A stretch of 64,000 bases of DNA, taken from contig NZ_CP030048.1 in the NCBI RefSeq assembly GCF_015291665.1, forward strand, positions 7,240,318 to 7,304,317, given 5' to 3'. This DNA is from Bradyrhizobium sp. CCBAU 53338. Its GTDB lineage: Bacteria > Pseudomonadota > Alphaproteobacteria > Rhizobiales > Xanthobacteraceae. Below, piece after piece: positions 5,811 to 24,150 of the stretch. Below the pieces are notes generated by a model that saw only the letters and a program-made list of their open reading frames with translations, was not told the origin of the DNA and did not search any database. The translations under genes were made by a program, and so were the position numbers. Every line of letters begins with the position of its first letter. Position 1 is the stretch's first letter.

Positions 5811-6049
5811 ATGGGCGATTTCATAGGGGCAGCGGGTGCGGCATTCACTACGGGCTCGCTGAATTGGATGTTTGACACCGACATCAAAGCAACCTTCGCC
5901 ACTATCGAGGAGCTGAGGAAGACTTTTCCCAACTTGCTTCTGCCCATGCAGAACCCTGGGCCGAAGGAGGCCAGGAAACAGACACTCCGCTTCGCGGCCT
6001 TCCTTCTTACTGAACCGCCCCGGGTTTGCCGGAGGCCATTTGGTTTGAG

Positions 6050-7281: not shown

Positions 7282-7732
7282 GGCTCCATCCTCTCAGGAG
7301 TTGGAGCCTCCGGCAAACCCGGGGCGGTTCATACCGACGCAGTTACTTTCAGCGGCAATTACCCGGCTCCCAATTTTAAGAATTGGCTCAAATGGCTCAC
7401 CTGGCTTGGAAAGAAGGCAGGAGGAACGGTCACTCTGGATGGCGCGGACTACCCGGGAAAGGCTAGCGAGATGATCTTAGATGTGATGGCGAGAGCTCTG
7501 CCGCACGGCGGCCCACCCTCTCCTATTCATTTCTCCTGGACCAATGATGCCGCGGCCGCTCATTTCGCTGTGGCCGGCACGACGGTCGGCGGATTTCGCA
7601 TTGATATCACCGCTCCAGATCACGGCCACGTAGCTGCCAACTCTGACGATGAGGATGGAATTTAGACATAGCTCAGCACAAGCCGTCACACGTGCGACGT
7701 GACACAACGCACCCGTTTCATCATCGGTCCAT

Positions 7733-8665
7733 ATGGATACTGAAGCGGCATCGCTTGACAAGCCGATGCGTATTGCAGCCTTCGACCACGTCCGAAGGCT
7801 AACTGAGCTCCATTCGCATCTGACCGCAACAGAATTGAGGCCAGGCTTCCCATTTCAAGGCGAGCGCGTGCCCCTGCTCAACGAGCGCCGCGGCATCTTC
7901 AAGCCGCGCCAAATGCGCTATTTGCTGTCTATCAAAACGGTCTTTCCCAAGCCAGGAGGCAAAGTTTGGTATGACGATCAGAGGGAGGTTCATCGTCAGA
8001 TATTCCAAAGTGACGAGACCGTAGACTACGCCTTCATGGGTCAAGACCCTGACTCCGCTGACAACCGATGGCTAAGGGAGGCGTATGAGAACTCCATTCC
8101 AATCATATACTTTCTCGGAGTGGCGCCGGGGCGTTATCAAGCATTTCTTCCGGCATTCATTTCAAGCTGGAATGGCAGCGCCTTGAGGGCTGGGGTAGCG
8201 TTCGGTTCTGTCGAGCATGGCTTGATCCCACCAGCTGAGGGGCCAGAGCGCAGATATGCGCTTCGGACGATAAAGCAACGATTGCATCAAGCTACTTTCA
8301 GAGAGGCAGTGATTGCGGCTTACAATGGACGGTGCGCCCTTTCGGGACTGCCAGAGCCCCTCCTATTGGATGCCGCTCACATCGCCGCCGACGCACACGA
8401 AAAGCTGGGACAGCCAGTAGTCTCCAATGGTCTCCCGTTATCTAAGATCCACCATGCCGCCTTCGATGCACATTTAATCGGGATCGACCCCGACTTTGGG
8501 ATACATGTTTCAGAGCGGCTACTGGGCCAAAGAGATGGCCCTATGTTGGACGCGCTCAAGCAACTGAACGGTCGGCAAATTCGGCTTCCCGATAGAATGC
8601 GAGATCGTCCAGACCGAGATAGGTTGGCGGCACGCTATGAGACCTTCAAAATTGCCTCGGCTTAG
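7733..8665 (+). CDS. HNH endonuclease, restriction-like
   Basis: Up to 310 residues, with a second possible start at 7766; neither has a convincing ribosome binding site. The C-terminal half carries an HNH_2-type nuclease: a GRCALSGLP knuckle, then LLDAAHIAAD with the catalytic His, and NGLPLSKIHHAAFDAHLIGID as the Asn/His part. The N-terminal half (to about residue 160) resembles the domain that precedes HNH in modification-dependent or solitary restriction enzymes; this is inferred from architecture. No methylase gene is adjacent. It sits between the IS-interrupted gene and the recombinase operon, with no close operon partner. Confidence 0.75.
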   Translation: MDTEAASLDKPMRIAAFDHVRRLTELHSHLTATELRPGFPFQGERVPLLNERRGIFKPRQMRYLLSIKTVFPKPGGKVWYDDQREVHRQIFQSDETVDYAFMGQDPDSADNRWLREAYENSIPIIYFLGVAPGRYQAFLPAFISSWNGSALRAGVAFGSVEHGLIPPAEGPERRYALRTIKQRLHQATFREAVIAAYNGRCALSGLPEPLLLDAAHIAADAHEKLGQPVVSNGLPLSKIHHAAFDAHLIGIDPDFGIHVSERLLGQRDGPMLDALKQLNGRQIRLPDRMRDRPDRDRLAARYETFKIASA

Positions 8666-8737
8666 CGCATCTTAATTCGCTCCCCGAGCCGCTCAACCGA
8701 GGGACTTCGCTCGTTGAGCCACGCCGACTTCAGTCCA

Positions 8738-9055
8738 TCAGCGTCGCCGAACAAGGTCTATCAGTTCCGCCAGTCTCCGCTCGAGGTCCTCGATTTTTGC
8801 ACTCATCAGCAGGTTTTCACGGCCGGCCATCGAGAGCACCGCCATCAACACAGCGTCGCAGTGTTTGATAAGCGTAACCAGATGATCCCCACTCGGACCG
8901 TAGTGACCCGCGAACCAATTCTTCACAGTGCGTTCATTGGCTCCAGTCCAAGCCGCTACAATCTTCACATGCGCACTTGTCTTTCCGAGCTCTTCGTTCA
9001 GGGCAGCTGCAACTCTCGTAGCGAAGATTCTGGAATTTGTTCCATTTTCGCTCAT
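8738..9055 (-). CDS. Small helix-turn-helix protein divergent from the recombinase
   Basis: The 105-residue product from the ATG at 9055 has a helix-turn-helix-like stretch: AAWTGANERTVKNWFAGHYGPSG. A C-terminal coiled-coil helix follows (AKIEDLERRLAELIDLVRRR). The frame is open further upstream to 9145, but that part lacks a good start. It is transcribed away from the serine recombinase gene, with about 115 bp between the starts. It is well placed to regulate that operon from the shared intergenic region. Confidence 0.65.
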   Translation of the reverse strand: MSENGTNSRIFATRVAAALNEELGKTSAHVKIVAAWTGANERTVKNWFAGHYGPSGDHLVTLIKHCDAVLMAVLSMAGRENLLMSAKIEDLERRLAELIDLVRRR

Positions 9056-9171
9056 GTTTCTGCTCGCCAGGAAACATCTTGCCCCTTTTTGGAAACGACA
9101 TTCCCTCAACCTGCTTCCTATGATCGCCAAGATCGGCGGCCGCAAAGTGACAGCACAAAAAGAGCATTTCG

Positions 9172-10740
9172 ATGGGGCGCCGTTTGATACGCCGACCTTT
9201 CAAAACCGAAGATCGCGATGGCGACATCAAGCCCGCAGCGGCCTATGTCCGTATGTCAACTGACCATCAGAAGTATTCGACCGAAAACCAGCTGGAGACG
9301 ATCGAACGATATGCCGCAAACCGCGGCTTTCGGATTGTCGCGACATTTGAAGACTCTGGCCGAAGCGGCCTAAGAGTGGACGGCCGAGAAGGCCTCCAAC
9401 GCCTTATGCGCGAAGTCCAGAGCGGCCAAGCCACTTTTTCGGCCATTCTTGTTTATGATGTCAGTCGATGGGGCCGCTTCCAAAACGCAGATGAAGGCGC
9501 ATACTACGAATACGTCTGCTCTCGCGCGGGAATCCGAGTTCACTATTGCGGCGAACAGTTTGACAATGATGGCAGCATTGGATCGGTTCTGCTTAAGAAC
9601 GTGAAGCGGGTGATGGCCGGTGAATATAGCCGAGAATTGTCGGTCAAAGTATTCGCCGGCCAATGCAGACTTGTCGAGCTTGGGTTTCGACAAGGTGGAC
9701 CTGCTGGATTTGGCCTCAGGCGCCAGCTCATTGACGAACACCGCGCACCCAAGGCGATGTTGAACCGCGGAGATCGGAAAAGCCTGCAGACAGATCGAGT
9801 TGTGCTTACCCTCGGGCCGGCAGAGGAAGTGGAGCAGGTCCGACAAATCTATAGGATGTTTGTTGAGCAGGGACTATCTGAGAAGGAGATTGCAGCACAG
9901 CTAAATATGGCGGGCACTCTCACAGATTTGGGTCGTCCTTGGACACGTGCTTCGGTCCATCAGATCCTCACCAATGAGAAATACATCGGAAACAACGTTT
10001 TCAACCGCGTCTCGTTCAAGCTCAAGCAGAAGCGCGTCGTGAATAATCCCGATACCTGGGTTAGAGCTGACGCGGCCTTTCCCCACCTAGTCAGCCATGA
10101 ACTCTTTGACCGAGCTCGCGCGATCATTGATGCTCGTAGCGCTCACTATTCAGATGAGGAACTGCTGGCCCTGCTGCAGGGGATTCTGAAGGAGGAGGGC
10201 TACCTCTCCGGGCTTATTATTGACGAGCGAGAGGACATGCCTTCGGCAAGCGCCTATCGTCATCGCTTCGGAAGCCTGATCCGAGCCTACAGTCTAATCG
10301 GATATATACCGGATCGAGATTACTCTTACATTGAGATAAATCGCCAAATAAGAGATACCTATCCGACGGTTGTCGCCACCATAGTTCACGGCTTCGAGCT
10401 ATCTGGCGCCGGCGTCTCTGCAGATCACAATCAGCTTCTGACCATAAATGATCAATTCACGGTAGCCGTCGTAATCGCGCGAGCGCGCATTTATGGCAGC
10501 GGATATCGCTGGCATGTGAGGTTTGACACGGGCTTGGTCCCAGATCTTACGATCGCAGTCCGATTGTCAACTTCGAACGCGGACGTATTGGACTATTACG
10601 TTTTTCCTAGACTCGACCTCACGACACCTCGGCTGAAGCTTGCTCAAGACAACGCGCTTCATTTGGATGCATATCGATTCGACGCGTTGGATTCGCTCTA
10701 TGCGCTGGCCAGACAGTGTCCCTTCGAGGAGGCCGCATGA
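9172..10740 (+). CDS. Large serine recombinase (resolvase/invertase family)
   Basis: The 522-residue protein has a resolvase N-terminal domain with the catalytic serine in AAYVRMSTDHQ (about residue 30) and the conserved LVYDVSRWGRF segment. It has the recombinase domain (GFGLRRQLI to the NEKYIGNNVFN segment). The C-terminal region (about 310-520) is longer and is not the usual zinc ribbon. Such enzymes catalyse site-specific integration or excision through a 5'-phosphoserine intermediate. The gene overlaps the next one in an ATGA, so the three-gene unit 9172-12547 is translationally coupled. It could act on this island or on a nested element. Confidence 0.85.
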   Translation: MGRRLIRRPFKTEDRDGDIKPAAAYVRMSTDHQKYSTENQLETIERYAANRGFRIVATFEDSGRSGLRVDGREGLQRLMREVQSGQATFSAILVYDVSRWGRFQNADEGAYYEYVCSRAGIRVHYCGEQFDNDGSIGSVLLKNVKRVMAGEYSRELSVKVFAGQCRLVELGFRQGGPAGFGLRRQLIDEHRAPKAMLNRGDRKSLQTDRVVLTLGPAEEVEQVRQIYRMFVEQGLSEKEIAAQLNMAGTLTDLGRPWTRASVHQILTNEKYIGNNVFNRVSFKLKQKRVVNNPDTWVRADAAFPHLVSHELFDRARAIIDARSAHYSDEELLALLQGILKEEGYLSGLIIDEREDMPSASAYRHRFGSLIRAYSLIGYIPDRDYSYIEINRQIRDTYPTVVATIVHGFELSGAGVSADHNQLLTINDQFTVAVVIARARIYGSGYRWHVRFDTGLVPDLTIAVRLSTSNADVLDYYVFPRLDLTTPRLKLAQDNALHLDAYRFDALDSLYALARQCPFEEAA

Positions 10741-11651
10741 ATATGCCAGACATAACAGGCGGCTCTCGGCTAGAGATCAAGGCCATACCGATCAGCCAGA
10801 TTCGTATCCTAAACCCTCGCGCGCGCAATCAGCGGAATTTTCACGAGATTGTAGAGAGCATAGCGAAGGTAGGCCTGAAACGTCCTATCACGGTTAGTCC
10901 TTGCACTTCTGACGGCGGGCCTTACCGATATGATCTGGTATGCGGGCAGGGTCGAATAGAAGCGTTCATTCAACTAGGCCAGCAAGAGATTCCGTCGATC
11001 GTTATTCATGCAGAGGAGAGTGATTGCCTCGTTATGAGCCTGGTCGAGAACTGTGCTCGCCGTCAGCATCGAGCAATCGATCTATTGGAGGATATTAGCA
11101 CCCTACGAGGTCGCGGTTACGATGAAAGAGAGATTGCCAACAAGATCGGCGTCAGCCTGGACTATGTTCGAATGATTAGCACACTCCTCTCGAAAGGCGA
11201 GGAACGCCTCGTTCACGCGGTCGAAACCGGCATTATACCCCTCAACATGGCGATCGAGATTGCCCGATGCGACGACAATGAAGTGCAGCGCGCTTTGACA
11301 CAGGCGTATACGGAGAAGAAGTTGCGGGGCAGAAAGTTAGTTGCGGTCAGGCGGGTAATTGAACAGCGTCAAAGGCGCGGCAAACATCTGCACGGGCAAA
11401 GTTTTGGACGGCAGACTGCCAAGAGGCCTCTTACCAGCGAATCCATGATTAGGGTCTACAGGCAGGAGGCTGATCGTCAGCGCCTTTTGATCAAAAAAGC
11501 TGAAATAACTCAAAACCGGCTATTGTTTGTGGTCGAGGCAATCCGAGCGCTGCGTGATGACGCCGAGTTCGTCAGACTGTTGCAGACAGAAGATCTCGCG
11601 ATGATGCCCTCGATATTGCAAGAACGACTCGCAGCGAGGCCAAGTCAATGA
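10737..11651 (+). CDS. ParB-like nuclease/CTPase-fold protein
   Basis: The 304-residue protein starts at the ATG following GAGGAGG. That ATG overlaps the recombinase stop codon. The N-terminal ParB/RepB domain has the box II-like CGQGRIEAFIQLG and box III-like LVENCARRQHRAIDLLED, which in ParB bind CTP and load the clamp on DNA. A helix-turn-helix follows (DEREIANKIGVSLDYVRMI). The C-terminus is basic and helical. No ParA-type ATPase is near. It may serve recombination control or maintenance rather than classical partition. Confidence 0.8.
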   Translation: MNMPDITGGSRLEIKAIPISQIRILNPRARNQRNFHEIVESIAKVGLKRPITVSPCTSDGGPYRYDLVCGQGRIEAFIQLGQQEIPSIVIHAEESDCLVMSLVENCARRQHRAIDLLEDISTLRGRGYDEREIANKIGVSLDYVRMISTLLSKGEERLVHAVETGIIPLNMAIEIARCDDNEVQRALTQAYTEKKLRGRKLVAVRRVIEQRQRRGKHLHGQSFGRQTAKRPLTSESMIRVYRQEADRQRLLIKKAEITQNRLLFVVEAIRALRDDAEFVRLLQTEDLAMMPSILQERLAARPSQ

Positions 11652-12547
11652 ATCAATACGTCGATCTCGTTGCTTTGGGCGAAGTCGTGCAGGCCTTTAG
11701 CTCCGACACCATCCACATCGATCTCTCCAAAATCCTGCCCGTGCGAGCAATCGGGAAGACCGTAAAGTCTAGCCGGAAATACCAGCAAATTGCTTGTTCC
11801 ATTAGGGAGATCGGCCTAGTCGAACCGCCAGTGGTTTGCCGAGATAAGCAGAGGACAGATACGTTTCTCTTGCTAGACGGCCACCTTCGAATTGAAGTGC
11901 TGAAAGATATTGGCGAAACGCAAGTGGAATGTTTGCTGTCTAGCGACGACGAGGCCTTCACTTATAACAAGAGGGTAAGCCGCCTGTCAGCCATTCAGGA
12001 ACAGCGAATGATCGCGAAGGCCATAGAGCGCAACGTTCCGAAAGAGAAGATAGCTAGAGCACTTGATATCAACGTTCGTAGCTTAGTCCGGAAGGCAACG
12101 TTGATTGAAGGAATATGCGAGGAGGCCGTGGCCCTTCTGAAAGATAAGATGTGCCCGATGGCCGTATTCGACATATTGCGGAAGATGATTCCAATACGGC
12201 AGATTGAGACAGCAGAGCTTCTGATCAACGCGAACAACTATTCGGTGGGATACGCCTCGGCCATCCTCGCGGGCACCGCTCAAGCGCAGCTCGTAAACTC
12301 GTCGACGCCGAAGCGGATAAAGGGGATGACTGCAGAGGCTCTTTCTCGAATGGAAACCGAGCTTTCGAGGCTTCAGCAGGCGATGACATCGATTCAGGAC
12401 AGCTACGGTCAAGACCACCTGCACCTCACGGTGCTCAGAGGTTACTTAGCCAAACTTGTCGGTAACACGAAAATTGCCAAGTATCTTGAGAGACACCACC
12501 CGGAATTCTTCTGCGAATTCAAGTCTATCGTTGAGACGTCGGCATGA
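11648..12547 (+). CDS. RepB/ParB-like plasmid-partitioning protein
   Basis: The 299-residue protein has a ParB-type N-terminus (QIACSIREIGLVEPPVV, LLLDGHLRIEVLKDIG) in which the usual GxRR motif is GHLR. The central and C-terminal parts resemble the RepB_C domain of rhizobial plasmid partition proteins (KIARALDINVRSLVRKATLIEGI; MCPMAVFDILRKM). It overlaps the previous gene by four bases (ATGA), giving a fixed recombinase-ParB-RepB order. Its exact job is not known; the coupling suggests it works with the recombinase. Confidence 0.8.
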   Translation: MNQYVDLVALGEVVQAFSSDTIHIDLSKILPVRAIGKTVKSSRKYQQIACSIREIGLVEPPVVCRDKQRTDTFLLLDGHLRIEVLKDIGETQVECLLSSDDEAFTYNKRVSRLSAIQEQRMIAKAIERNVPKEKIARALDINVRSLVRKATLIEGICEEAVALLKDKMCPMAVFDILRKMIPIRQIETAELLINANNYSVGYASAILAGTAQAQLVNSSTPKRIKGMTAEALSRMETELSRLQQAMTSIQDSYGQDHLHLTVLRGYLAKLVGNTKIAKYLERHHPEFFCEFKSIVETSA

Positions 12548-12893
12548 CGGCGTAGACACGCTGAAGTCTTTTTGGGCCTAAGGGGACCCGGACCCTACAA
12601 GCGCGGGGACCACGGGAGAAGCCGCACCTGGAGGCGGAGCAATCGTGGTGATGGGGATGGCGGCGAACCCGCTCGGAGCCCATCAGGCCGGCGAGCTTTC
12701 GCTGGCTGAACGACTAATCGGGGTGGCGGCCGCTTCGCGGCCGACACTCCTTCTGGATATAGAGTTCGGCTTCAATCGGTGTTGCAACTCTAAGTTATTC
12801 GCGTTTCAATGGCATACGGCAGTTATATATTGAACCATAATTCCTCGGGGGTAAGGGCGTCCAATTGCTCCTATATGGAAGAGAGACTTTTTG
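12548..12893. other. Intergenic region upstream of the NACHT gene, contains repeat copy A
   Basis: No gene is supported here. It holds a 57 bp segment (12674-12730) with a diverged direct copy at 16989-17046 downstream of the NACHT operon. The last 100 bp before the gene are AT-rich and probably carry its promoter. GGAAGAGAG ten bases before the ATG at 12894 is a plausible ribosome binding site. Confidence 0.5.
12674..12730 (+). repeat. Diverged direct repeat, copy A
   Basis: It shares the core GAGCCCATCAGG, then CGGCG, GCTTTCGC and finally GTGGCGGC with copy B at 16989-17046, about 80 percent identity by eye with one gap. The two copies bracket the NACHT gene pair in the same orientation, as if the pair were a cassette. 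Confidence 0.6.
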
Positions 12894-15800
12894 ATGTGTG
12901 CGCGGCTGCTGCTCGGCATCACAATCGGCGTTTATTTCTGCGGCGCCGCAAACGCGGCAGCTCTTTCCACCGACCAAGCTAAGACGAGCTTTGGTCGAGC
13001 GGTGTTCTCAGCCCTGAGTGACCCCGACGCTCGAATACGAAGTTACGGGTGGCAGGCAATTGGACAGCTTGGCCGCTTGTCCGGCGCCAATCAGCTCCAC
13101 ACCCTGAAATTTGAGCAGTTTATCCTTCAAGATCGTGACGCGGCGATCGCGCACATTGACAACCTGTTCGACCGCGCTGCTGTGGCTACCGACGACGGAA
13201 GCACAAAAACCGAGCTTGCCGAATTCCGACAACTTTCCTTATCAGTTCCGGAGGTAGCAGCACTAGCTCTTGGCCGGCCAAAGCTCGGTAAGGTCTTCGA
13301 TTCTGAGACGTTGAGGCAATTCCGCGAAGCAGCACAACGTCAACGTCCTCAATTGATGATCACTCCCAGCGGCGACTCAGCAATCGCAACCTCTCTCGAT
13401 GCACTCGAATCGTCGAACGCGAATGAAACCGAAATGCGGCGGGATGGTTCGGCAACCCTGGCTCGATCTACACTTCAGCCCTCTCTCCTCGATCGAATCG
13501 AGATCCTCTTGAACAACAATAGCTTCCGACCGGAAGCTCGGCGCAACCTCGCTCTCGCAATGATCCGCAACGGACGCTCGGCCAAAACATTATTGGTCGT
13601 GGATGACTTATTGGCCGCCGGCGTCAACAGTGCCGAACAAAACGGATTTGCACTCGACATCCTCACAACAATGCTGCTGGTAGCTCCGTCGCAAGGACGA
13701 CAAGCAACCATAGATCGCGCGAACCAAATTATTCCTCTCTTATCGGACACAGAATTGTTCGTGAAGGCGAGCGCGGTTCTAAGTCAAATAGCAAGAGATG
13801 ACTTCGCAAAGATTATTTCTCTTCAACTCATGAGGCGGATCGAGATTGGAGATGGACTTGGAGGAAATCTTTGCGTTTACTCTCAAGCACTTCCCCGGTC
13901 GCGAGATCTTCCGCTAGAGTTGGCTCTGGTGTCGCGAATCCCTAGCGAAGGCGCTAATCGAATAGACACTGCAGGCTGCGTGATCATCCTGGGTGAAGAC
14001 TCCAACCTCACCAGCAGTCTTCGGGAGCTGGCTCTGAAAATTGAGCCGGCGGAAAAAGAAGAGCGACAGCGTCGCCTCAAGGCCTTGGACGCCCTCTGGA
14101 ACGAGGCTTCCAACCTGGACGGTCGTCAATTCCCAAACATAGTCGAGGCAGCTCGAAAACTATTGATATTGGATGCAGCTAGCCTCGCGAGCGATTTTCC
14201 CTTGACGTCGACCACCTCCCTTTCAAATTGGATGGAGCGCGCTGAAACTGCTAGAATTCCAACACAGCTCTACCGGTCGTATCTGTTGCGCAAAGCGCTC
14301 ATTTGGCTTCCAACAGTAGTTGGAGGAATACTGTTGTGGCCAATTGCGCTCATTCTTATAGTTCTGACGTCTCGTTCAGAGACCATACGGGTATTCCTAT
14401 TGTTTCATCCTCTTGGACGCCAAATTGGCGCGCTTGGCCAAACAAACACGTTAATTTTCTCCATTCCAATCCTTCGGCGCTTGTTCTTTCTTCCCTATCG
14501 AACGATCATGTTAGGACAATTAGCTCAGGACATCGCCTCCGAAAGCCCCGAAAATAACTACTATTCTAGTTCTGGCGTAGCTGAACTTGAGCGAGGGGCC
14601 ATCGCTCATCAATTACGGGAGCTTGATAGAAGCACACTAAGCGTGGCTCCTCCCGAGCGGCCCACAGTTGTCGAGAAGCTTAGCCAATGGGAAGGACTGC
14701 TCTTTCTGATCGGACAGTCTGGAAGGGGCAAATCAATGTTCGTCCGTTATCAAATGTCCATCACTGGACAAGCGCGCGATCCTGAGATCTTCGCAACTGC
14801 TATCGAGCTGGGTCGAGAACCCGCAAAAGCAATACAAGCAAGATTTGGATCGGCCGTGCCGGACGATCGTCTCATCGACTCGCTAATCCAATCGAAGCGA
14901 CTGACCTTGTATATCGATGGCTTGAACGAGGTAGACCCTGATACGCGTGCATCAATCTTGGACTACATGGCCGCGCGCCCCCACTCGAACATCCTTGTAA
15001 CGACCCAACCTCTCGATCGTTACCCTAGTGGAGCTAAGTTGCTGGCCTTACTCCCATTAACTCGGTCGCAAATAGTTTCATTCCTCTCCAGCCGCGCCCG
15101 AGATAAAACGGAGGATAGCGAAATCAGCGGCTATCGCACACAGTCTCTAGCTTTTGTCGCTGAGAAGCTAGCCGAGGCCGACGGAGAGTTTGAGGTTGGC
15201 GATACTGACGGGCGAGAAAGATCTCGCGCGCTTGTCGAACGATTGTCCAACCCGATGGATTTGCAGACTATCGCGGACTTGCTCCTTCTTGGTCAAAGGC
15301 CCGACGTGTGGGCCCTTCAAAAGCAACGACATAGGTTAGTAGACGATCTATTTCGCGAGCAAGGAGGAGGTGATCCCTTCCCACTTCGGGCGTTTTCTCG
15401 ATCCGTTTATGAAGCGCGAAGGGACGGCACTTCCGAAATTGACGGAGATCACTTTCCACGCGTCGCGGAAGTCCTGCTGAAAGAGAAACAGATTCAACGA
15501 TACGTAACAGTCGCTTCTGGATTTAAGTCGGATGGTTATATTTTTCGGCATGACAAGATAAGAGACTTCTATACATGCGCAACGTTTGTTGCGGATCCAG
15601 AGCTTAGAACGATGCACGCAGGTGACGATAAATTTGCAGGCGTCTACGACCTCCTCTGCCAAGAATTGCCTCCGCGAGAGGCCACTGAGCTACGCGAATA
15701 TCTTGCCGAACGAGCGTTGGATAACGGAGACCATCGCATGTCGGACCGATATTTGGAGGGACTTCGCACGCGCCGCGCTCTCGATAGTAAAGATCCGCCA

Positions 15801-16352
15801 TGGTTGGCCGAGTTTGACCGAGATGATGTCGCAGGCGAAAACGACGTGGTGGCCCGACGAGAGGCCGTGCGCGCCCAGGCCGTCGCTTCAATGGCAGAGT
15901 CGCTAGCTCGATTGGATGCCGGCCGAACCGGAACTCGTGTAATCTCAGCGCCGCGCTCAGACCTTCTGCTCGAGGCAACGACATCCTTGCTATCTGAGGC
16001 CGGCGTTGTCCCAGCGGGCGTAGGGTCGGCCCAGAAGCTCCTCTTCGTTACACCATCCCAATTCAAGTTTGGCGTTCTCGGCTTAGCGCACTATGGAGAC
16101 CTCCCTACGTCGATGCTCGAAGGAGCGAGAGCGCTGTTAGGCTTAATTCCAGCGGATAGCGTGCCGACGATGGTCGTTGTGAACGCGCAGGCGGATCTAG
16201 AGCCATCTAAGCGCTCTGAAGCAAGCTTGTCGGCGATAAGAGTCATCTTTGAAGATCAGCTTGTGCCGGTAATCACAGCTTGTGATTTGCTATCGCTTGT
16301 GAGGTCAGAACAAAAGGGTGTCCGATATGATCTTGCGGGGCTTTGGAGTTAA
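12894..16352 (+). CDS. Membrane-spanning NACHT/STAND NTPase with exported N-terminal domain
   Basis: The 1152-residue protein begins with a Sec-type signal (LLLGITIGVYFCGAANA). About 440 residues follow that look alpha-helical and HEAT-like (ARRNLALAMIRNGRS) and should lie in the periplasm. One membrane segment comes at about 468-490 (LPTVVGGILLWPIALILIVL). A cytoplasmic NACHT-type ATPase follows: Walker A GQSGRGKS near 606 and Walker B LYIDGLNEV near 671, where the NACHT signature is hhhhDGxxE. The remaining 400 or so residues include a FRHDKIRDFY segment like the winged-helix part of STAND proteins. Topology suggests signalling from the cell envelope to an inner ATPase. The C-terminal effector is not recognised. 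Its stop overlaps the next gene. Confidence 0.75.
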   Translation: MCARLLLGITIGVYFCGAANAAALSTDQAKTSFGRAVFSALSDPDARIRSYGWQAIGQLGRLSGANQLHTLKFEQFILQDRDAAIAHIDNLFDRAAVATDDGSTKTELAEFRQLSLSVPEVAALALGRPKLGKVFDSETLRQFREAAQRQRPQLMITPSGDSAIATSLDALESSNANETEMRRDGSATLARSTLQPSLLDRIEILLNNNSFRPEARRNLALAMIRNGRSAKTLLVVDDLLAAGVNSAEQNGFALDILTTMLLVAPSQGRQATIDRANQIIPLLSDTELFVKASAVLSQIARDDFAKIISLQLMRRIEIGDGLGGNLCVYSQALPRSRDLPLELALVSRIPSEGANRIDTAGCVIILGEDSNLTSSLRELALKIEPAEKEERQRRLKALDALWNEASNLDGRQFPNIVEAARKLLILDAASLASDFPLTSTTSLSNWMERAETARIPTQLYRSYLLRKALIWLPTVVGGILLWPIALILIVLTSRSETIRVFLLFHPLGRQIGALGQTNTLIFSIPILRRLFFLPYRTIMLGQLAQDIASESPENNYYSSSGVAELERGAIAHQLRELDRSTLSVAPPERPTVVEKLSQWEGLLFLIGQSGRGKSMFVRYQMSITGQARDPEIFATAIELGREPAKAIQARFGSAVPDDRLIDSLIQSKRLTLYIDGLNEVDPDTRASILDYMAARPHSNILVTTQPLDRYPSGAKLLALLPLTRSQIVSFLSSRARDKTEDSEISGYRTQSLAFVAEKLAEADGEFEVGDTDGRERSRALVERLSNPMDLQTIADLLLLGQRPDVWALQKQRHRLVDDLFREQGGGDPFPLRAFSRSVYEARRDGTSEIDGDHFPRVAEVLLKEKQIQRYVTVASGFKSDGYIFRHDKIRDFYTCATFVADPELRTMHAGDDKFAGVYDLLCQELPPREATELREYLAERALDNGDHRMSDRYLEGLRTRRALDSKDPPWLAEFDRDDVAGENDVVARREAVRAQAVASMAESLARLDAGRTGTRVISAPRSDLLLEATTSLLSEAGVVPAGVGSAQKLLFVTPSQFKFGVLGLAHYGDLPTSMLEGARALLGLIPADSVPTMVVVNAQADLEPSKRSEASLSAIRVIFEDQLVPVITACDLLSLVRSEQKGVRYDLAGLWS

Positions 16353-16941
16353 GTTAGCTAGACGACTATTCTGGCGACTCTCGGTGATCGCATTCGTTTA
16401 CGAAGGATCGGGGACAGCGGTCTTTGCGCAGGTTGAGACGAAGGTATTTCAAAACAGCTACATTTCTCTCGAAGTGCCTACCACATGGGATTGCGTTCGA
16501 GAGGGGGACGCCTTCGTCTGTCAGGAGAATGGCCTTCCTACGGTATCTTCAATGGCTGTCATTGCTGCAAAGATAGCTGACCCAGAGACCGACACTCCAG
16601 CTGTTTTTGCATCGGAATTGGGCCTTCAGCGCACTAAGAAGGCTTTGGATGGAACGACGATGCTGTCGAAGCCGATAGACAGTCGCCTGCGATGCATCCG
16701 AGGAACGAGATGGCAATGGGCGAAGCAATATCAATCCGAGCTAGCCAACTACTACACTGAATATTTTGCCACCGTAACAAAAGGCATCGCGATCCTTGTA
16801 TCTATTTCATACCACACCAGTGTCGAGGCCGACGGACGAGAATTTGCACGTTTGATAGCGAGACGTCTCACCGTAACATACGGCGCTGCAAATCCGCTTG
16901 CATCTCTGACAGACAAGTCCGCTTGCAAATGGGAGGACTAG
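16327..16941 (+). CDS. Exported partner of the NACHT protein
   Basis: The 204-residue protein overlaps the end of the NACHT gene by 26 bp (or 35 bp if the GTG at 16318 is used), so translation is coupled. The N-terminus is basic then hydrophobic (RRLFWRLSVIAFVYEGSGTAVFAQ), a signal peptide. The mature part is beta-rich (FQNSYISLEVPTTWDCVREGDAFVC) with four or five cysteines that could form disulfides. It should lie in the periplasm, next to the exported domain of its neighbour. No family recognised. It may be a ligand, sensor or regulator of the NACHT protein; this is inference from topology and coupling. Confidence 0.65.
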   Translation: MILRGFGVKLARRLFWRLSVIAFVYEGSGTAVFAQVETKVFQNSYISLEVPTTWDCVREGDAFVCQENGLPTVSSMAVIAAKIADPETDTPAVFASELGLQRTKKALDGTTMLSKPIDSRLRCIRGTRWQWAKQYQSELANYYTEYFATVTKGIAILVSISYHTSVEADGREFARLIARRLTVTYGAANPLASLTDKSACKWED

Positions 16942-16988
16942 CCGCTGCCATCGATATTGATTGCAGCTGAGTAATAGCGGCGGACCCG

Positions 16989-17046
16989 TCGAGCCCATCA
17001 GGTCGGCGCGCTTTCGCCGGCTCACTGGTCAGATCGGAGTGGCGGC
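16989..17046 (+). repeat. Diverged direct repeat, copy B
   Basis: This is the partner of 12674-12730, in the same orientation, about 50 bp after the end of the exported-partner gene. See copy A for the shared blocks. It marks the right edge of the putative NACHT cassette. Confidence 0.6.
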
Positions 17047-17409
17047 TTAACCTTGTCACTCCGTCTCTCGCAGGTCAGATAGACCAGGGCTCTGGCAGGG
17101 CAAAGCTCTGCCGTCAAATTCCCCCTCCAAATCAATGCTGACTTGCTTCTTTGGCCTGGCTGATTCACGATCTGTCACATTGGCGGCGCGTGTAAATGGA
17201 CCGCGGTCTTCCGCAGCTGGACCGGCAGCTGACCGAATCCATTGAAAGCTACTGGTTTCCAAGGCTCGGTCCGCCTTCGCCGTAGGCAACATTCGAGTCA
17301 CGTTCGCGCACCTCTTATCGGCGATTGGGGGCCAAGCCGTCCGCTTTGACGCGCCCATAACGATTAGAAGCAGGAACAACATCCTCTCAATTGTCAGGCA
17401 TGCATAATT
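17047..17409. other. Intergenic, possible small antisense exported ORF
   Basis: A minus-strand frame (17056-17421) contains a hydrophobic start, MLFLLLIVMGAS, at about 17382 and could encode a short exported protein of about 108 residues. Its C-terminus is low in structure signals, it has no clear ribosome binding site, and it would diverge from the next gene with almost no promoter space. I do not call it as a gene. Confidence 0.25.
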
Positions 17410-17985
17410 ATGGCGAAGCAAAATCAGGATAGCTCCAAAAAACTGCGTGGGGGTTCACCTGCAACTAGCCAAGGGGGAGGTATATGGGTGCAGCTTCAGC
17501 CGGATCAACTGGAGGCCCTGGATGCTTGGATTGAAAAACAGGCTAGTCAGCTATCCCGTGCCCAAGCGATATGCTGCATCGTGAAAAGTCGATTGAAGGG
17601 CAAAACCAACCCTAACCGCTCAAAATTATACTCCAAGACTCAGTTGCGAGATGCCTTAGAAACGCTCCGAGCGCCAACTCCGATATCAGACCGATTGAAG
17701 AAGGAGAAGGATGACGACTATCGCAAACGTTTAATAAGGTGGACCGTCAAGAACAGTAAATCGCGCAACGCGCGTGAGGTATATAATCGACTTCAAGTCC
17801 CTGAGTGGATCCTTTGGATCAATGAGGCCGCAGGCGTGTCAGCAGAACTCATTAGAAAAGCGAAATCTGAAATGCGGCGCAGCGTAACGAGACAGCAGCA
17901 GGCCGCAAACGTTAGAAGCGTCTTGCAATGGGGGCGGGCAGCCCAGCTGCTATTCGATAAGCACTCGGCCGCTCAACGTCGCTGA
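17410..17985 (+). CDS. Ribbon-helix-helix-like DNA-binding protein
   Basis: The 191-residue protein has an N-terminal segment IWVQLQPDQLEALDAWIEKQ followed by SRAQAICCIVKSRLK. This fits the strand-helix-helix pattern of MetJ/Arc-type (CopG) proteins. The rest is highly basic and helical (LKKEKDDDYRKRLIRWTVK). No toxin partner is next to it on the same strand. It converges with the HD-PRTase operon, about 100 bp away. It may be a regulator of the island; function unproven. Confidence 0.55.
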   Translation: MAKQNQDSSKKLRGGSPATSQGGGIWVQLQPDQLEALDAWIEKQASQLSRAQAICCIVKSRLKGKTNPNRSKLYSKTQLRDALETLRAPTPISDRLKKEKDDDYRKRLIRWTVKNSKSRNAREVYNRLQVPEWILWINEAAGVSAELIRKAKSEMRRSVTRQQQAANVRSVLQWGRAAQLLFDKHSAAQRR

Positions 17986-18082
17986 CTTCCTTAGCTGTTA
18001 TATGTATCGCTTCTGGACTTTCACTAGGCGTTAGCTCTTGCCAATTTCGCGCGCATTGCAAATTGTGCTCGACGCGATCCCT

Positions 18083-20935
18083 CTATGAGATCACCAAGTT
18101 AGATAGCTTGCTGCTTCTTAATAACAAAGGAACCCACGGCTCACCTCGGTGAACGCCAGGGCACCAAAGAGCACTAACCGTCGAAGTCGGAACGGAGCTA
18201 TTTGTGGCAACTAACGCTCCAACATTCCCGTATCCAAGAGCCCTCTCTCTGCACTTCGCTTTCTGGCTTGGAGTCAGCTCACTAAAATTCCGCTGGTAAA
18301 GTGTTGAAGCGATAACGGATTGGCCAACCTCAGATAGATAGTTCTTCAGTTTCGATTTCCACTGGAAAGCACGGTCAATCCTTATTGAATATCGCAAGCC
18401 TTTGAAGCTATCGAAGTCATTCTTCTTCATTTCAGCCTTGATTGCTTTGTTTGCAGCCGGACTTCCCGCACAAACGATTAGATGCACGTCACGAGTCTTG
18501 AGCAACGAGACCTGCTCTTGGCTCAAAGGGGATAGGAGATCGTGCTCGTCCTGGCATTCGATTGGCCAGTCGGCTCTGTCGACGCCTAGCAGATTTAATA
18601 GTTGGGCTCTGGCTTGAACGCCAGATGCAGAATTATCATCGACAAATACTATCGGATCATCACTCTCGTGAGCGAGTGCCGCCGCGATATCGGCCGGAAA
18701 TCTGAGATCTCCCTGCCCTCGCAGCTCGCGTTTGAGCATTGCATGAACCTGATATCCACTGGTCGCAGAGAATGCGACAACGTCAGCCCCCGTTTCGAGG
18801 CCCTCAAGAATTGGCTGGATGCCGGCCACTATCGCATCCGCGTCAAAGACTGTTATCGCCAAAAGCGAATCAGCCATGGCATCCCTCAAGTCGATCGGAA
18901 ACTGACTTAGATATGCTGCGACGGACTTAGGTGTCACAGACCACCCGCGAACTCCGTTGAATTTCTCCAGACGGCGCGCAATCTGTATTGCAGCTTCACT
19001 ACTGTCGTCGAACGGCTCCGCTGCCCAGCACTTGTCGTCAAAATATCCTACGCTCGCTAGAGCCGAGTGAACCTGTCTTATCCGCGTTCCGGAAACACCG
19101 GACCGCAAAATCGATGTAGTATAATCTGGCAGAAAACGAGTGTATTGACGAACAGTATCGACTATCGTTTTTTCCGGACCGATTTTGAACTCGAGATCAA
19201 TGTTGCCGATCTTGTTCTCCATACGAGCTAGGACCACACGCGCGGCGAAGAAGATAACTGCTCGCCACTGTTCGTCGCAAAGAACGAAACCAATTTCCTT
19301 CAAAAGCTCAAAGGCGTCCTGCTGCTCCCGCGCGTTACTATAATCTCGAACCGTCAGCAGGTGATCGTTCTGGCAGATTATTGGATTGTGGTTTTTCTGC
19401 TTTTCATGAGCATTGCCTACTGCGATCAAACAGTCGGGTCCAATCGTATCGAACTGATCGATCAACTCGAGATCATTCGAACTCGAAATTGCTTCGATAA
19501 TTTTCTTCGCCTCTGAGCGAATATCCCTCTCGAGGATCGCTCCATCTCCACGCCAGAGCCGTTCTTCTCGCAAATGCTCCTCAATAATCGTGTTCTTTAC
19601 CTGCTTTTTTATTCGTTTGATCGAAGCGTCAGAGGTATTTGGAAGAATCTCGTGGATCGGTGTTTGAAGGTTACCCAATCCGGGACTAAACGAGTATGCC
19701 TTCTTGGGTAAGTTTCTCGTCGTCACCCTGCTAATTAGCTTTTTGACGACTGGTGATCTTGACTTTCCGATCCTCTCGAGCAGCTCAACGTCTCGGTATG
19801 ACCAGATTTTGAGGATGTTTGTTAAGTCACGATCAGCATTAGCCAGGCCGCCATTCAACTCAAGAGCTCGGCCAAATATTCGCTCTGCTGTGCGAGTAAC
19901 CGCATGAAAGTAGACACGCTGATAGAGCGCAGTTCTCGCTTGAAGGATCTCATCGATGGTATCAAGTCCTGAAGAGTTTATTACGAAGAGATACTCTTCC
20001 GTCGTCGGAGCGCTTTTGAAGCCCAACGACCTTATTTGTTCGATGCTAGCTAGAATAATGCCACTGCGTAGGAATACTCGAGCTACGTCCACCCCAACAG
20101 GAATTCCGCAGTTTAAAGCGTCACGATTCACATAGTCGACCTTGTCTGCGTCGACAGCTCCTGAAATGAGTTCGGAGACCCCAGTAAGTTTTTGGTTAGG
20201 TGGTATGCCTGCAATCAGGCAGCATATTGTTAGCAGCGGAACCTGGGAATTCGGCAAATCTGCGCAAACAAAATTTCGATAGAAGTTTTCGAATCGGCGC
20301 GAGAGAAGAATTATGAGTGTCAAAACCTCGGACAGAGGAAGGTTTTTACCCAGCTGCAGATTTGCAGCGAGCAATATGTCAGTTGCGCTTTTTCCTCCAA
20401 TCGAAAAAAGCTGAGGTTGGCTTGTCAGAACCTTTTCGGTGACATGAGAAAATGGAAGATGACCGATGTCATGCAACAAAGCTGCGTGGACAAGATCGGC
20501 CGAAGACAGACCCGGAATAGAATCTAGAGACTGATACTTGATACTGTTGTCAGGATTTTGCTCGAGCGCTCTTTTATCAATCGCCCGGATGAAGTTTTTG
20601 ACAACATGGCCGATACCCAGAGAATGACTAAAGCGAGAGTGCTCCGCTGATGGGTATGTTAGATAGCTGAATCCAAGCTGCTTCACATATCTTAGCCGCT
20701 GCAGCACTGGACTGTCGATCAAGCGCATTTCGCGCCAATCGAACTCCATCATGCCCCATTGATTATCTTTGATCTGCTTGCTTTTTTGGTGACTGGTGGC
20801 TTTTGCTCGAGAAATCGATGACTTGACGTAGGCATCGGTAAATCCAATGGCGTCAAGGGCTCGTTCGATCGCTTGCTGAAGCGAATTATCGCTCTGCCAA
20901 TTGTTTTTTAGTGAGCGAGCTCTTTCAATCGACAT
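18083..20935 (-). CDS. HD-domain hydrolase fused to a phosphoribosyltransferase-like domain
   Basis: The 950-residue protein has an SAMHD1/dGTPase-type HD domain: HSRFSHSLGIGHVV near residue 100, the metal site LLHDIGHLPFSH near 155, and DADKVDYVNRDA near 258. The middle (about 400-640) is helical and unassigned. The C-terminal third carries a phosphoribosyltransferase-type PRPP loop, IVFVDDNSASGVQARAQLL near 765, preceded by VVAFSATSGYQVHAMLKREL. This resembles the PRTase-CE type linked to bacterial conflict systems (from memory). HD enzymes of this kind hydrolyse dNTPs; the PRTase part might modify nucleotides or sense PRPP. It follows the small gene 20954-21418 by 18 bp. Confidence 0.7.
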   Translation of the reverse strand: MSIERARSLKNNWQSDNSLQQAIERALDAIGFTDAYVKSSISRAKATSHQKSKQIKDNQWGMMEFDWREMRLIDSPVLQRLRYVKQLGFSYLTYPSAEHSRFSHSLGIGHVVKNFIRAIDKRALEQNPDNSIKYQSLDSIPGLSSADLVHAALLHDIGHLPFSHVTEKVLTSQPQLFSIGGKSATDILLAANLQLGKNLPLSEVLTLIILLSRRFENFYRNFVCADLPNSQVPLLTICCLIAGIPPNQKLTGVSELISGAVDADKVDYVNRDALNCGIPVGVDVARVFLRSGIILASIEQIRSLGFKSAPTTEEYLFVINSSGLDTIDEILQARTALYQRVYFHAVTRTAERIFGRALELNGGLANADRDLTNILKIWSYRDVELLERIGKSRSPVVKKLISRVTTRNLPKKAYSFSPGLGNLQTPIHEILPNTSDASIKRIKKQVKNTIIEEHLREERLWRGDGAILERDIRSEAKKIIEAISSSNDLELIDQFDTIGPDCLIAVGNAHEKQKNHNPIICQNDHLLTVRDYSNAREQQDAFELLKEIGFVLCDEQWRAVIFFAARVVLARMENKIGNIDLEFKIGPEKTIVDTVRQYTRFLPDYTTSILRSGVSGTRIRQVHSALASVGYFDDKCWAAEPFDDSSEAAIQIARRLEKFNGVRGWSVTPKSVAAYLSQFPIDLRDAMADSLLAITVFDADAIVAGIQPILEGLETGADVVAFSATSGYQVHAMLKRELRGQGDLRFPADIAAALAHESDDPIVFVDDNSASGVQARAQLLNLLGVDRADWPIECQDEHDLLSPLSQEQVSLLKTRDVHLIVCAGSPAANKAIKAEMKKNDFDSFKGLRYSIRIDRAFQWKSKLKNYLSEVGQSVIASTLYQRNFSELTPSQKAKCRERALGYGNVGALVATNSSVPTSTVSALWCPGVHRGEPWVPLLLRSSKLSNLVIS

Positions 20936-20953
20936 CGCTCAAGAACATTTCAT

Positions 20954-21418
20954 CTATCTCCGAGCTGCGACAAATGCCTTTGCTGCCGTCGTCGCAAGAG
21001 CTCGCTGAAAATCTGGAATTGTCTTTGCAAAACTCTGAGCTTGGGACTTTGAAATTGGGAACGCTATGTCATCGTAAAATGGGTTTGGCGATGCCGTAAA
21101 TGTTAGTTGTAATGATCGCAAGGCGGCTTCGAAACCCTCATAGCTACCAGTATTGCTCGCCCGAAGTTCATTTGCAATTTTTGCAACTGCGAGCACAGCG
21201 TCCGAAGACACTTTTTCCTTGAGGAGCTTCTTAACTTCGCCGTCCAAAATTCGGACCACGTTCGCGAAACCCTGGCGGTCTTTAGGATTATGAGGATAGA
21301 CCGCCTCGACATTTAGCTGAACTAAGTGAGCTACCAAGGCTTTCGTGAACGACTGAAGATCAACGGACCTCGCAGCTTCGTTTATAGCTTGTGCGGCGGA
21401 TGAAGAGGCTTTCGGCAT
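20954..21418 (-). CDS. Small helical partner gene upstream of the HD-PRTase
   Basis: The 154-residue protein starts MPKASSSAAQAINEAARSVD and is predicted almost wholly alpha-helical (LDGEVKKLLKEKVSSDAVLAVAKIANELRAS), with no signal peptide or membrane segment. I do not recognise a family. It ends 18 bp before the HD-PRTase start, so the two form an operon. Small helical proteins in such positions often regulate or bridge the large enzyme, but nothing in the sequence proves this. Confidence 0.65.
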   Translation of the reverse strand: MPKASSSAAQAINEAARSVDLQSFTKALVAHLVQLNVEAVYPHNPKDRQGFANVVRILDGEVKKLLKEKVSSDAVLAVAKIANELRASNTGSYEGFEAALRSLQLTFTASPNPFYDDIAFPISKSQAQSFAKTIPDFQRALATTAAKAFVAARR

Positions 21419-22044
21419 ATATTTCTCTACATGTCAGGCCTGACGCGCTTAGCTGACACACTATCTGGTAGGGAGAAGAAGCTAGATTGCAACTTTTGTC
21501 AAAGCTCGGGTAGCCATGACAAATGCTGCGAGCAATATAAGAGTCATTTGAATCACTTAGCCATCTAAGATTCCGGGCTCGAGGTTCGTCCTGTCGTCTG
21601 TCTATCAGTTTTAACGAAAATGATTCGTCCTGGCTCAGGATACGACTGGATAAAAGGAGTGGTAACTTCGGGGAAAACCACGATCCGAAGCACAAACAAT
21701 TCGCCTTTTTGAACCAGCCTCTATGACAAGGTCTCCACAGCTATCGAATTGCTGTCTGCAACGATCGCAATTCACACGCCCGGCCGATTTTCTAGCACGT
21801 CGCGCATGAAACTCAAGAACATTTAGAGAACAATCTTAATGGCGCAAAATGGCACCGTGATCTAGTTCTGCCTGAGCAAGGTTGACTCGCAGCACTGGGG
21901 CTTGGTTGCACAACAGCGCGTGGACAGGAGCAGGGAGCCGCTCGTAGCCACAACAGCAGCGCACAACATGACGCTGCTGAGGTAACCATCAGACTGTAAT
22001 TGGCTGAGCATGATGGCCCTACAATTTTGCCGACCAGGATCCAC
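21419..22044. other. Intergenic stretch upstream of the HD-PRTase operon
   Basis: About 625 bp without a supported gene. Frames on both strands are short and lack start signals. It contains an AT-rich part just upstream of 21418 that should hold the operon promoter, and the 3' end of the UPF0489 gene lies at its right border. Confidence 0.4.
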
Positions 22045-22857
22045 TTACGGCAAAGCAAAATCGATACCCAGTCGGGAGAGCCCGAGCCGCGCAGTTTCCA
22101 CGGCAGGGCCCCATCCTCCGGTTAAATCTTTGGTCGAGGTAAGGGCAATCGTAACTACGCCAATAGTGCCGTCATTTCGCTTTCGCGCAATCACGTCGAA
22201 CACTCCCGAGATGAAATCTGGCGAGAGAAAGCGCTGGGGCGGTTGGTCGTCAGAGGCGTCGCAGAAGAAGTAGTCGAGATCGACATTCATAATCCAAGGC
22301 GCCAGTTCCGGCTTAAGCCAGTAGTCGAGATTTTCAGGAACGTCCCATACGTCATGTTCCCAAATCTCTTGCTTTGGCCTCTCTCCAACTCGATGGGTTG
22401 CAAAATTTACCGAGTTCAAATGGCGCCCGAATAGCTCCAGATAAATCGAAAGATAATTATCCCAGCTAAGTAGGGGAATCTCCCCTATAGCCGGATGAGC
22501 GACAGTAAGAGACAAATAATCTTCAATTGGAATGTCCCAGCATGAAGGAACCTTCTTCAGCCACTCATTCATATGGCTTGTTCTCGTGTCGTAGTGTTGG
22601 TCGATGTGGAAGAGTGAGTGCGATGACGTTGGCTTTATGCGCTGCAACCAGCACCACATCGCCGCCCGGTGGTTGTCCATTACGAAAACATTCTCGTGTT
22701 GCCACAGGAAGTTTAGCTGGGTGTAGGCTGACGAACCTCTTCCTTTAAACGGAACAAGCCATTTTCCTTCATCCATCGAGATCATTGCATGTCCTTGCTT
22801 CGACAATTTCATCCACTGGAAGTGGACAGCGCCTATTCTGACGCAAAACCCAGACAT
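22045..22857 (-). CDS. UPF0489 family protein
   Basis: About 270 residues from the ATG at 22857; starts at 22905 and 22812 are also possible. Features of the UPF0489 (C5orf22-like) family are visible: VFVMDNHRAAMWCW, LFHIDQHYDTR, WIMNVDLDYFF and IGVVTIALTSTKDLTGGW. The Asp/His pairs recall the metal site of arginase-fold enzymes, to which this family is thought to be related. The biochemical function is unknown. It lies alone, 626 bp upstream of the HD-PRTase operon on the same strand. Confidence 0.75.
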   Translation of the reverse strand: MSGFCVRIGAVHFQWMKLSKQGHAMISMDEGKWLVPFKGRGSSAYTQLNFLWQHENVFVMDNHRAAMWCWLQRIKPTSSHSLFHIDQHYDTRTSHMNEWLKKVPSCWDIPIEDYLSLTVAHPAIGEIPLLSWDNYLSIYLELFGRHLNSVNFATHRVGERPKQEIWEHDVWDVPENLDYWLKPELAPWIMNVDLDYFFCDASDDQPPQRFLSPDFISGVFDVIARKRNDGTIGVVTIALTSTKDLTGGWGPAVETARLGLSRLGIDFALP

Positions 22858-24105: not shown

Positions 24106-24150
24106 CGCCCCTATCAACTCACTTCACCCGAGCAAACAGGAAAAGAGAGA

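Follow-up and report, generated by a model that had tools for sequence, protein, structure and literature searches.

The window analysed here, a 64,000-nucleotide stretch of the genome of Bradyrhizobium sp. CCBAU 53338 (NZ_CP030048.1, positions 7,240,318 to 7,304,317), carries, on a mobile genomic island, two overlapping genes that encode a membrane-spanning HEAT-NACHT protein (hereafter the receptor) and a small, probably exported protein (hereafter the partner). The features are as follows:

388..41494, no strand: genomic island, 41,107 bp, with a 40-bp exact copy of the 5' half of tRNA-Arg at its left end
12894..16352, + strand: receptor gene, ATG start, frame intact, 1152 aa (coordinates include the stop)
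12894..12956, + strand: receptor signal peptide (rule scan), cleavage placed by eye near residue 21, between ANA and A
12957..14303, + strand: helical, HEAT-like half of the receptor (residues 22-470), predicted to be periplasmic; Cys327 and Cys362 present in 14/14 paired proteins
14313..14369, + strand: transmembrane helix, residues 474-492
14376..14528, + strand: juxtamembrane segment (residues 495-545), basic and conserved, judged amphipathic by eye
14661..15773, + strand: NACHT NTPase module, about residues 590-960
15822..16349, + strand: C-terminal part of the receptor (residues 977-1152), a helix plus an alpha/beta domain, present in the partnered subfamily
16327..16941, + strand: partner gene, 204 aa; Mog1/PsbP-like fold with Cys56 and Cys65 invariant, product probably exported
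27558..40206, - strand: class 1 DISARM genes drmB, drmA, drmMI and drmD, on the island; context, outside the receptor-partner pair
41495..41571, + strand: tRNA-Arg (ccg), right boundary of the island

In the receptor, a signal peptide precedes a HEAT-like half, and a single membrane helix separates this half from a NACHT ATPase whose Walker motifs are intact. Its N-terminus (MCARLLLGITIGVYFCGAANA, followed by A after the cleavage site) is signal-peptide-like and passes the rule scan (as L002), and residues 474-492 form a strong hydrophobic segment (mean Kyte-Doolittle hydropathy 2.46). The same hydrophobicity scan marks a weaker segment, residues 486-504, that overlaps 474-492, and an in-frame TTG (12891) lies just before the ATG at 12894. 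Structure prediction, which the initial annotation had proposed for each half and for the complex, gave an AlphaFold2 model of the receptor that is helical over residues ~32-452 (block pLDDT 61-89) and of low quality around the membrane segment and the NACHT module (pLDDT <50 for residues 532-672). All elements that the initial annotation had read in the open reading frame at 12894-16352, namely a signal peptide, about 440 helical residues, one membrane segment, and Walker A and B motifs, were recovered.

The Walker A sequence GQSGRGKS (residues 607-614; positions 14712-14735) and the Walker B sequence IDGLNEV (residues 674-680; positions 14913-14933) fit NACHT-type Walker A and B motifs, the NACHT-type Walker B pattern being hhhDGhxE. 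Residues G607, S609, G610, G612, K613, D675, N678 and E679 are invariant in 34/34 aligned relatives; because these key residues are invariant and the partner lies directly downstream in every testable locus (below), the receptor observation is not a chance one. The best PDB profile match of the receptor is NLRC4 (E 8.2e-6), with sigma-54 activators following from 0.0056, which places the receptor nearer to NACHT proteins of solved structure than to other AAA+ ATPases. The Pfam NACHT model scores the receptor at 14.1 bits, below its cut-off of 26.7, and therefore does not by itself file the receptor as NACHT; it matches 8 of the 34 relatives at E 0.01. No PADLOC model matched the receptor at E 1.

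Had the N-terminal half proved cytoplasmic in homologs, the initial annotation would have counted this against its reading. What we find is a signal-peptide-like start in 61 of 67 family open frames (window included) vs. 95 of 374 other open frames in the same loci, in a scan of plus-strand frames of at least 700 aa starting inside a locus, with copies left out by name and L002 kept as the window; the six family frames that fail the rule are L013, L028, L031, L048, L074 and L085. In addition, Cys327 and Cys362 of the ectodomain are kept in 14/14 paired proteins, and in 33/34 relatives positive charge is greater on the C-terminal side of the membrane helix than on its N-terminal side. A further cysteine column, kept in 12/14 paired proteins, lies in the cytosolic half (residue 639), and the outer half is therefore not the only site of conserved cysteines. 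These signal-peptide-like starts, the two conserved ectodomain cysteines and the charge bias support an N-terminal half of the exported type across the family. The contrary view, of a cytoplasmic N-terminal half and a pairing that reflects mere operon inertia, can point to the silence of the AlphaFold model on topology, to the weak signal peptide of the window partner, and to the conserved cysteine column in the C-terminal half; set against the three lines of evidence above, and against a linkage that is kept on both chromosomes and plasmids, we consider it very improbable.

The partner gene overlaps the receptor gene by 26 bp if it starts at the ATG at 16327, or by 35 bp if it starts at the GTG at 16318, and ends at 16941, which bears out the 26-35 bp overlap reported initially. 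The second gene had also been described as encoding a signal-peptide protein, a description that suits its relatives better than the window copy. The start of the window partner is basic and an A-X-A-like site is present, but the protein lacks a hydrophobic stretch of 11 uncharged residues, and the hydrophobicity scan finds no membrane-length segment in it; its database entry (P0014, 185 aa) starts 19 residues later. Among 14 partners, 7 pass and 7 fail a strict signal-peptide rule. The partner, itself probably exported, belongs to a family that mostly looks exported. Cys56 and Cys65 are invariant in 43 aligned rows.

Structure prediction for the partner gives a Mog1/PsbP fold, and in a fold search most of the domain matches members of that fold with solved structures; a profile of the partner family searched against the PDB returned no Mog1/PsbP-fold chain, its sole listed match being a nitroreductase (E 0.0067). 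The fold is shared with the periplasmic immunity protein Tsi3, and one could suppose that the trigger is a rival bacterium rather than a phage, with the partner binding a periplasm-injected toxin, in the way that Tsi3 binds Tse3, and the receptor starting a response in turn. We regard this as rather unlikely, since PsbP, LpqN, DcrB and Mog1, with unrelated functions, match the partner fold at like scores and no toxin gene recurs beside the pair. There are also partner-like proteins without known NACHT neighbours: among the 120 matches listed, 82 exceed 215 aa and carry a C-terminal membrane-like segment, and of these the ones bearing names are mostly from Bdellovibrio; the fold may therefore serve general envelope roles.

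The results of a linkage survey, also proposed initially, indicate that receptor and partner form a stable unit; a lack of conserved linkage, which the initial annotation would have counted against its reading, is not what the subfamily shows. The partner lies directly 3' of the receptor in 14/14 testable loci of the subfamily (window included), loci that we take to belong to Alpha- and Betaproteobacteria, and it is missing in 62/62 of the other relatives kept whose sequence extends 700 bp or more past the gene; 10 of the 13 paired loci outside the window have a 4-bp gene overlap. For this count, 80 of 152 confirmed loci were kept, 70 of them without partner, 8 of these with less than 700 bp after the gene (L015, none); the 94 core matches include several copies of one locus (L002-L011), and the close relatives P0002-P0007 and P0009, database proteins without context, were left out. 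In 72,556 plasmid records the partner query has 3 matches, all 3 adjoining a match to the receptor query. Across 17 loci (14 NACHT, 3 TIR; see below) no third neighbour recurs within 6 kb, apart from transposases and one L034/L099 frame pair. Partner distances track the C-terminal domain of the receptor (r 0.94) as closely as its ectodomain (r 0.93), and the distance test therefore does not single out the ectodomain as the partner contact.

Within the subfamily the two genes are obligately linked and mostly overlap, as those of toxin-antitoxin pairs do, which would fit a partner that acts as an inhibitor, an antitoxin-like lock that silences the receptor until an invader removes or degrades it. 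This is an unlikely reading, given that short-form relatives keep the signal peptide, HEAT half, membrane helix and NACHT module without a partner. Relatives have another cytosolic output part or none; the C-terminal domain is absent from the 62 kept partnerless relatives, which are mostly cyanobacterial. In the AlphaFold2 model the order of elements in this domain looks nuclease-like by eye (the fold search mainly covered residues 155-455), and a profile search of the PDB with the domain gave no match at E 10. PD-(D/E)XK nucleases have a conserved D...(D/E)xK catalytic set, and the invariant columns of 14 rows hold no such set. The domain would thus combine a nuclease-like order of elements with a lack of conserved catalytic residues.

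In 3 of the 6 partner-holding genomes of the order (L098-L100), the partner follows not a NACHT protein but a TIR-membrane protein. With a profile of this TIR-TM receptor, SARM1 and tir-1 account for all 16 PDB matches at E <=1 (best 0.0025, 9 at <=0.011), and TIR_2 is listed for 5 of 53 relatives; the single proteins are weak, 1 of 3 matching TIR_2, below its cut-off. By profile, the receptor coupled to the partner in L098-L100 is a TIR domain protein. A TIR-TM-WD40 relative has no partner within 3 kb downstream. The coupling makes testable the question whether one partner family drives two cytosolic immune outputs, NACHT and TIR. A broader idea, which we put forward tentatively and hold to be possible at less than even odds, is that these are bacterial Toll-like transmembrane receptors, in which a shared periplasmic Mog1/PsbP co-receptor would serve two unrelated receptors, one signalling through a cytosolic NACHT module (signal peptide and HEAT outside) and one through a cytosolic TIR domain (helical repeats outside), so that envelope events would trigger immunity ahead of any cytosolic action of invader DNA or proteins.

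The island that carries the pair has a GC content of 0.558 vs. 0.644 in the right flank. Elsewhere, Avs3a/b lie beside L019, and AbiEi/AbiEii and AriA beside L068; known defence genes are near 3 of the 11 paired loci with scanned flanks, L101-L103 being outside the scan. A set of 62 flanking proteins came from 11 loci, 10 of them paired, and was hand-picked from a rough gene list with small or doubtful frames dropped. These defence genes, the mobile-element settings and the coupling to TIR receptors argue for a defence role, which, like the ligand and output of the pair, we infer. An envelope-sensing NACHT protein with a periplasmic partner was the initial interpretation, and it is supported in part, by the exported-type N-terminal half and by the tight linkage of the pair within its subfamily.

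STAND proteins can also be regulators that change gene expression, as MalT does, and the switch might instead be a non-immune envelope or host sensor through which periplasmic stress or plant compounds alter gene expression in root-associated bacteria. We think this improbable: no DNA-binding family matched the window receptor in the domain search; the receptor core is rare and patchy, occurring in 3 of 397 genomes of the order, its own included; the pair is carried by plasmids and, in the window, by an island that also holds a defence system; and the paired subfamily also occurs in Nitrotoga, Massilia and Azohydromonas, which are not known to be root symbionts. The initial annotation would also have taken a known non-defence role of close homologs as a refutation. 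Such homologs are named as hypothetical or HEAT proteins, and neither these names nor the literature searched gave such a role, which is weak evidence.

We favour, with a probability of about 0.55, the reading that the pair is an outward-facing, NLR-like inner-membrane immune receptor that senses the envelope with a periplasmic co-receptor. According to this hypothesis, the partner, in the periplasm with the HEAT ectodomain, would serve as co-receptor for a signature of envelope attack, candidates being phage entry, peptidoglycan damage and an injected toxin; a change in the ectodomain would cross the membrane, and the NACHT module would bind ATP and oligomerise; clustering would act via the conserved juxtamembrane segment and the C-terminal domain, with harm to the cell's own membrane or effector recruitment as the most likely output; and the cell would stop or die before the invader spreads.

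A distant relative of the receptor (P0011) lists among its Pfam domains PF19964, which we take to be EAD11. Conflict systems of multicellular bacteria comprise STAND NTPases, HEAT/TPR repeats, effector-associated domains and trypsin-/caspase-like peptidases, with some membrane-associated members (PMC7159879, eLife 2020; PMC8195603, eLife 2021); the portions of these papers available to us describe no exported-HEAT NACHT protein and no Mog1/PsbP-fold partner. In Zorya, an anti-phage system with a MotAB-like ZorAB complex, a periplasmic peptidoglycan-binding part is proposed to sense peptidoglycan damage and to signal inward, and Zorya as presented in the available text has no NACHT, HEAT or Mog1/PsbP protein (PMC11890865). 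The literature searched, part of it in excerpt, yielded no coupling of Tsi3 or other Mog1/PsbP-fold proteins to a NACHT or TIR receptor, and no description of the receptor-partner pair; the coupling of the partner family to a TIR-membrane protein in place of NACHT is new here.

The pair also resembles bNACHT/Avs proteins, which share with the receptor a NACHT/STAND ATPase with intact Walker motifs and an NLR-like character, and one relative (L019) adjoins Avs3. Characterised bNACHT/Avs proteins are generally known as intracellular. Their effectors are usually N-terminal, the STAND domain being central, as summarised in the available part of PMC10907252. Here, in contrast, a sensor-like half is N-terminal, begins with a signal peptide, lies across a membrane helix from the NACHT module, and comes with a dedicated partner gene. 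The Avs/bNACHT order of N-terminal effector, central NTPase and C-terminal sensor was rejected for the window protein, given its exported-type HEAT N-terminal half and the PADLOC result above. To our knowledge, work on bacterial NLR relatives has so far treated them as guards of the cytosol; if the envelope-sensing reading is true, a family with its sensor half across the inner membrane and a co-inherited partner gene would carry bacterial innate immunity out to the envelope, and would be a prokaryotic counterpart of Toll-like and other surface receptors with their co-receptors.

The pair comprises two genes:
12894-16352, forward strand, receptor (HEAT-TM-NACHT protein, 1152 aa)
16327-16941, forward strand, partner (Mog1/PsbP-like protein, 204 aa)

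The receptor contains, from N to C terminus, a signal peptide, a helical half, a membrane helix (residues 474-492), a basic juxtamembrane stretch, a NACHT module (Walker A, residues 607-614; Walker B, residues 674-680), and a C-terminal helix plus alpha/beta domain. Pfam matches to the window receptor (AAA_22, Sigma54_activ_2, NACHT, and HEAT) are all sub-threshold; across 34 family members, HEAT_2 is found in 22, AAA_22 in 21, and NACHT in 8. A profile that starts ahead of the membrane helix and runs to the C terminus has NLRC4 as its best PDB match (8.2e-6). In the AlphaFold model, the HEAT half is fair and the region from ~480 to 800 is poor; a fold search matches the HEAT half to ARM/HEAT proteins with middling Z scores (best 10.8), and these model-based matches would carry little weight on their own. 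When 5.8 billion proteins were searched with the receptor, 12 matched: the window protein itself, 8 close relatives at 45-61% identity, and 3 distantly related HEAT proteins.

The initial annotation proposed that the N-terminal half is exported, and three results bear this out. First, by a fixed rule, signal-peptide-like starts are present in 61 of 67 family open frames (at least 700 aa, beginning inside the locus) versus 95 of 374 other frames of the same loci (at least 300 aa). Second, cysteines 327 and 362 are present in 14/14 paired receptors, and a second ectodomain cysteine pair is present in 12/14; the cytosolic half also has a cysteine column (residue 639, 12/14). Third, in 33 of 34 rows the 45-residue stretch following the membrane helix has a higher net charge than the 20-residue stretch preceding it (raw values, unequal lengths). 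Together, these results are taken as good evidence for an N-out, C-in orientation. At L013, the B. yuanmingense locus (5344-6363 and 6126-10220), the receptor frame is without a signal peptide and is overlapped by an upstream frame, which may hold the N-terminal part of the receptor.

A profile search of genome contigs identified 152 confirmed receptor relatives, of which 80 were kept. The partner gene is directly downstream in all 10 kept loci in which the match extends past query residue 700 (L012, from Bradyrhizobium sp. Arg816, and L013, L014, L016, L019, L027, L034, L035, L039, and L068), with a 4-bp overlap in 7 and gaps of 2, 17, and 17 bp in the rest. No partner is present in the available sequence of the other 70 kept loci, and in 62 of these the sequence continues for 700 bp or more beyond the gene. 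In a separate search of 72,556 plasmid records, 4 match the receptor query and 3 the partner query; all 3 partner genes adjoin a receptor gene and overlap it by 4 bp, and the remaining plasmid receptor, from Calothrix, is without a partner. The partner thus directly follows the receptor in 14/14 testable loci (10 contig loci, 3 plasmid loci, and the window), and the two genes are tightly linked in this subfamily, as initially proposed.

The partner has two invariant cysteines and a confident Mog1/PsbP-like model; Pfam detects no family above chance in it (43 rows), and 1041 relatives are found in the protein database at E 0.001. Its proposed identity as a signal-peptide protein stands in part: under a strict rule of the same kind as that used for the receptor, 7/14 partners pass, but the window partner fails, although its sequence, inspected by eye, shows a basic start together with an A-X-A-like site. 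As read from these sequences, export of the partner is less sure than that of the receptor. Many database relatives among P0046-P0132 are ~240 aa in length with a C-terminal membrane-like segment, and the named ones are mostly from Bdellovibrio.

The partner family is also found with a second receptor type. The partner profile matches 6 of 397 genomes of the order, and in a comparable draw the receptor core matches 3 of 397, all of them among the partner-positive 6. Each of the remaining 3 partner genes sits next to the end of a gene encoding a TIR protein:
L098, 7666-10613, TIR-TM-helical receptor beside partner
L099, 7381-9773, TIR-TM-helical receptor beside partner
L100, 6544-8522, TIR-TM-helical receptor beside partner

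Each of these receptors combines a TIR domain with a single membrane helix and a C-terminal half that is helical. In the PDB, the TIR profile finds SARM1 and tir-1 chains (best 0.0025); an invariant glutamate, residue 113 in L099, lines up with the glutamate in the tir-1 WVHKE stretch, which we take to be the catalytic one. At E 0.001, 53 members of the family are found in the database; TIR_2 is listed for 5, and several are named as TPR proteins. In these loci the partner starts with a long hydrophobic helix, which resembles an anchor more than a cleaved signal. For a related TIR-TM-WD40 protein (L106; L109, 3031-6333), the 3 kb downstream contain no partner. At L100 (4930-6534 and 9346-10482), a trypsin-like peptidase gene is directly upstream and a caspase-like gene is nearby; at L103, a NACHT pair, a trypsin-like gene (3125-5239) is two genes upstream. 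Each receptor type has one locus with a trypsin-like peptidase gene close by, and the caspase-like gene accompanies the TIR pair. Database proteins P0037 (partner relative) and P0161 (TIR receptor relative) both have a longest contig of 6260 bases and are perhaps on one contig.

Because most short-form receptor relatives, chiefly cyanobacterial, stop right after the NACHT part, the minimal unit, as judged from sequence, is signal peptide, HEAT, membrane helix, juxtamembrane segment, and NACHT. Since no catalytic effector is visible in this unit in the short forms, output would likely proceed through the conserved membrane-proximal segment or through recruitment of another protein. In the window subfamily, the C-terminal domain, which is without nuclease residues, would be the output side. 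Three cyanobacterial relatives (L059, L084, and L088) have, by eye, an extra ATPase-like stretch fused after the NACHT part; such varied C-terminal parts fit exchangeable outputs. Mean distance among the 14 paired proteins is 0.75 for the ectodomain, 0.70 for the C-terminal domain, and 0.50 for NACHT, a pattern that would be expected of sensing and output parts but also of loosely constrained ones. Candidate triggers are phage entry, injected toxins, and conjugation. A Bacteroidia locus (L077, 1-7426) contains two neighbouring HEAT-TM-NACHT open frames.

The window corresponds to bases 7240318-7304317 of contig 1 of the 8.28-Mb genome, and the pair is carried on a 41,107-bp island (window 388-41494; GC 0.558, versus 0.644 to the right) with the following features:
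starts 388, 40-bp exact copy of the tRNA-Arg 5' half, left boundary
6053-6955, transposase with integrase core
23116-24102, phage-type integrase
27561-40206, class 1 DISARM set drmB-drmA-drmMI-drmD
41495-41571, intact tRNA-Arg(ccg), right boundary

Of the 30 bases preceding the 40-bp copy, 28 are also alike. The island further contains a serine recombinase gene, two ParB/RepB-like genes, and an HNH gene. A 950-aa protein with HD and PRTase-CE domains (18083-20935; weak dGTPase and PRTase_III-A matches) is a possible further defence gene, and a zinc-ribbon, guanylate-cyclase, AAA_16, and TPR protein (743-3964) lies just within the left end.

Known defence genes are near 3 of the 11 paired loci with flanks scanned: the window (DISARM, ~10 kb downstream of the pair), L019 (Avs3a/b), and L068 (AbiEi/AbiEii and AriA). 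For 62 proteins chosen from the flanks of 11 loci (the 10 paired contig loci and L015), PADLOC reports 32 families, many of them generic; Pfam detects phage integrases in 3 and, in single members, F-type transfer proteins and a MobA-type relaxase.

The open-access PMC papers searched contain no description of an exported-HEAT NACHT protein with a Mog1/PsbP-like partner. Related work was drawn on in excerpt (PMC7159879, PMC8195603, PMC10907252, PMC3792639, and PMC11890865). For a single target protein encoded at a DGR locus, PMC10907252 predicts that the NACHT and lectin domains are periplasmic; periplasmic NACHT-linked sensors have, on that prediction, already been suggested in a different setting.
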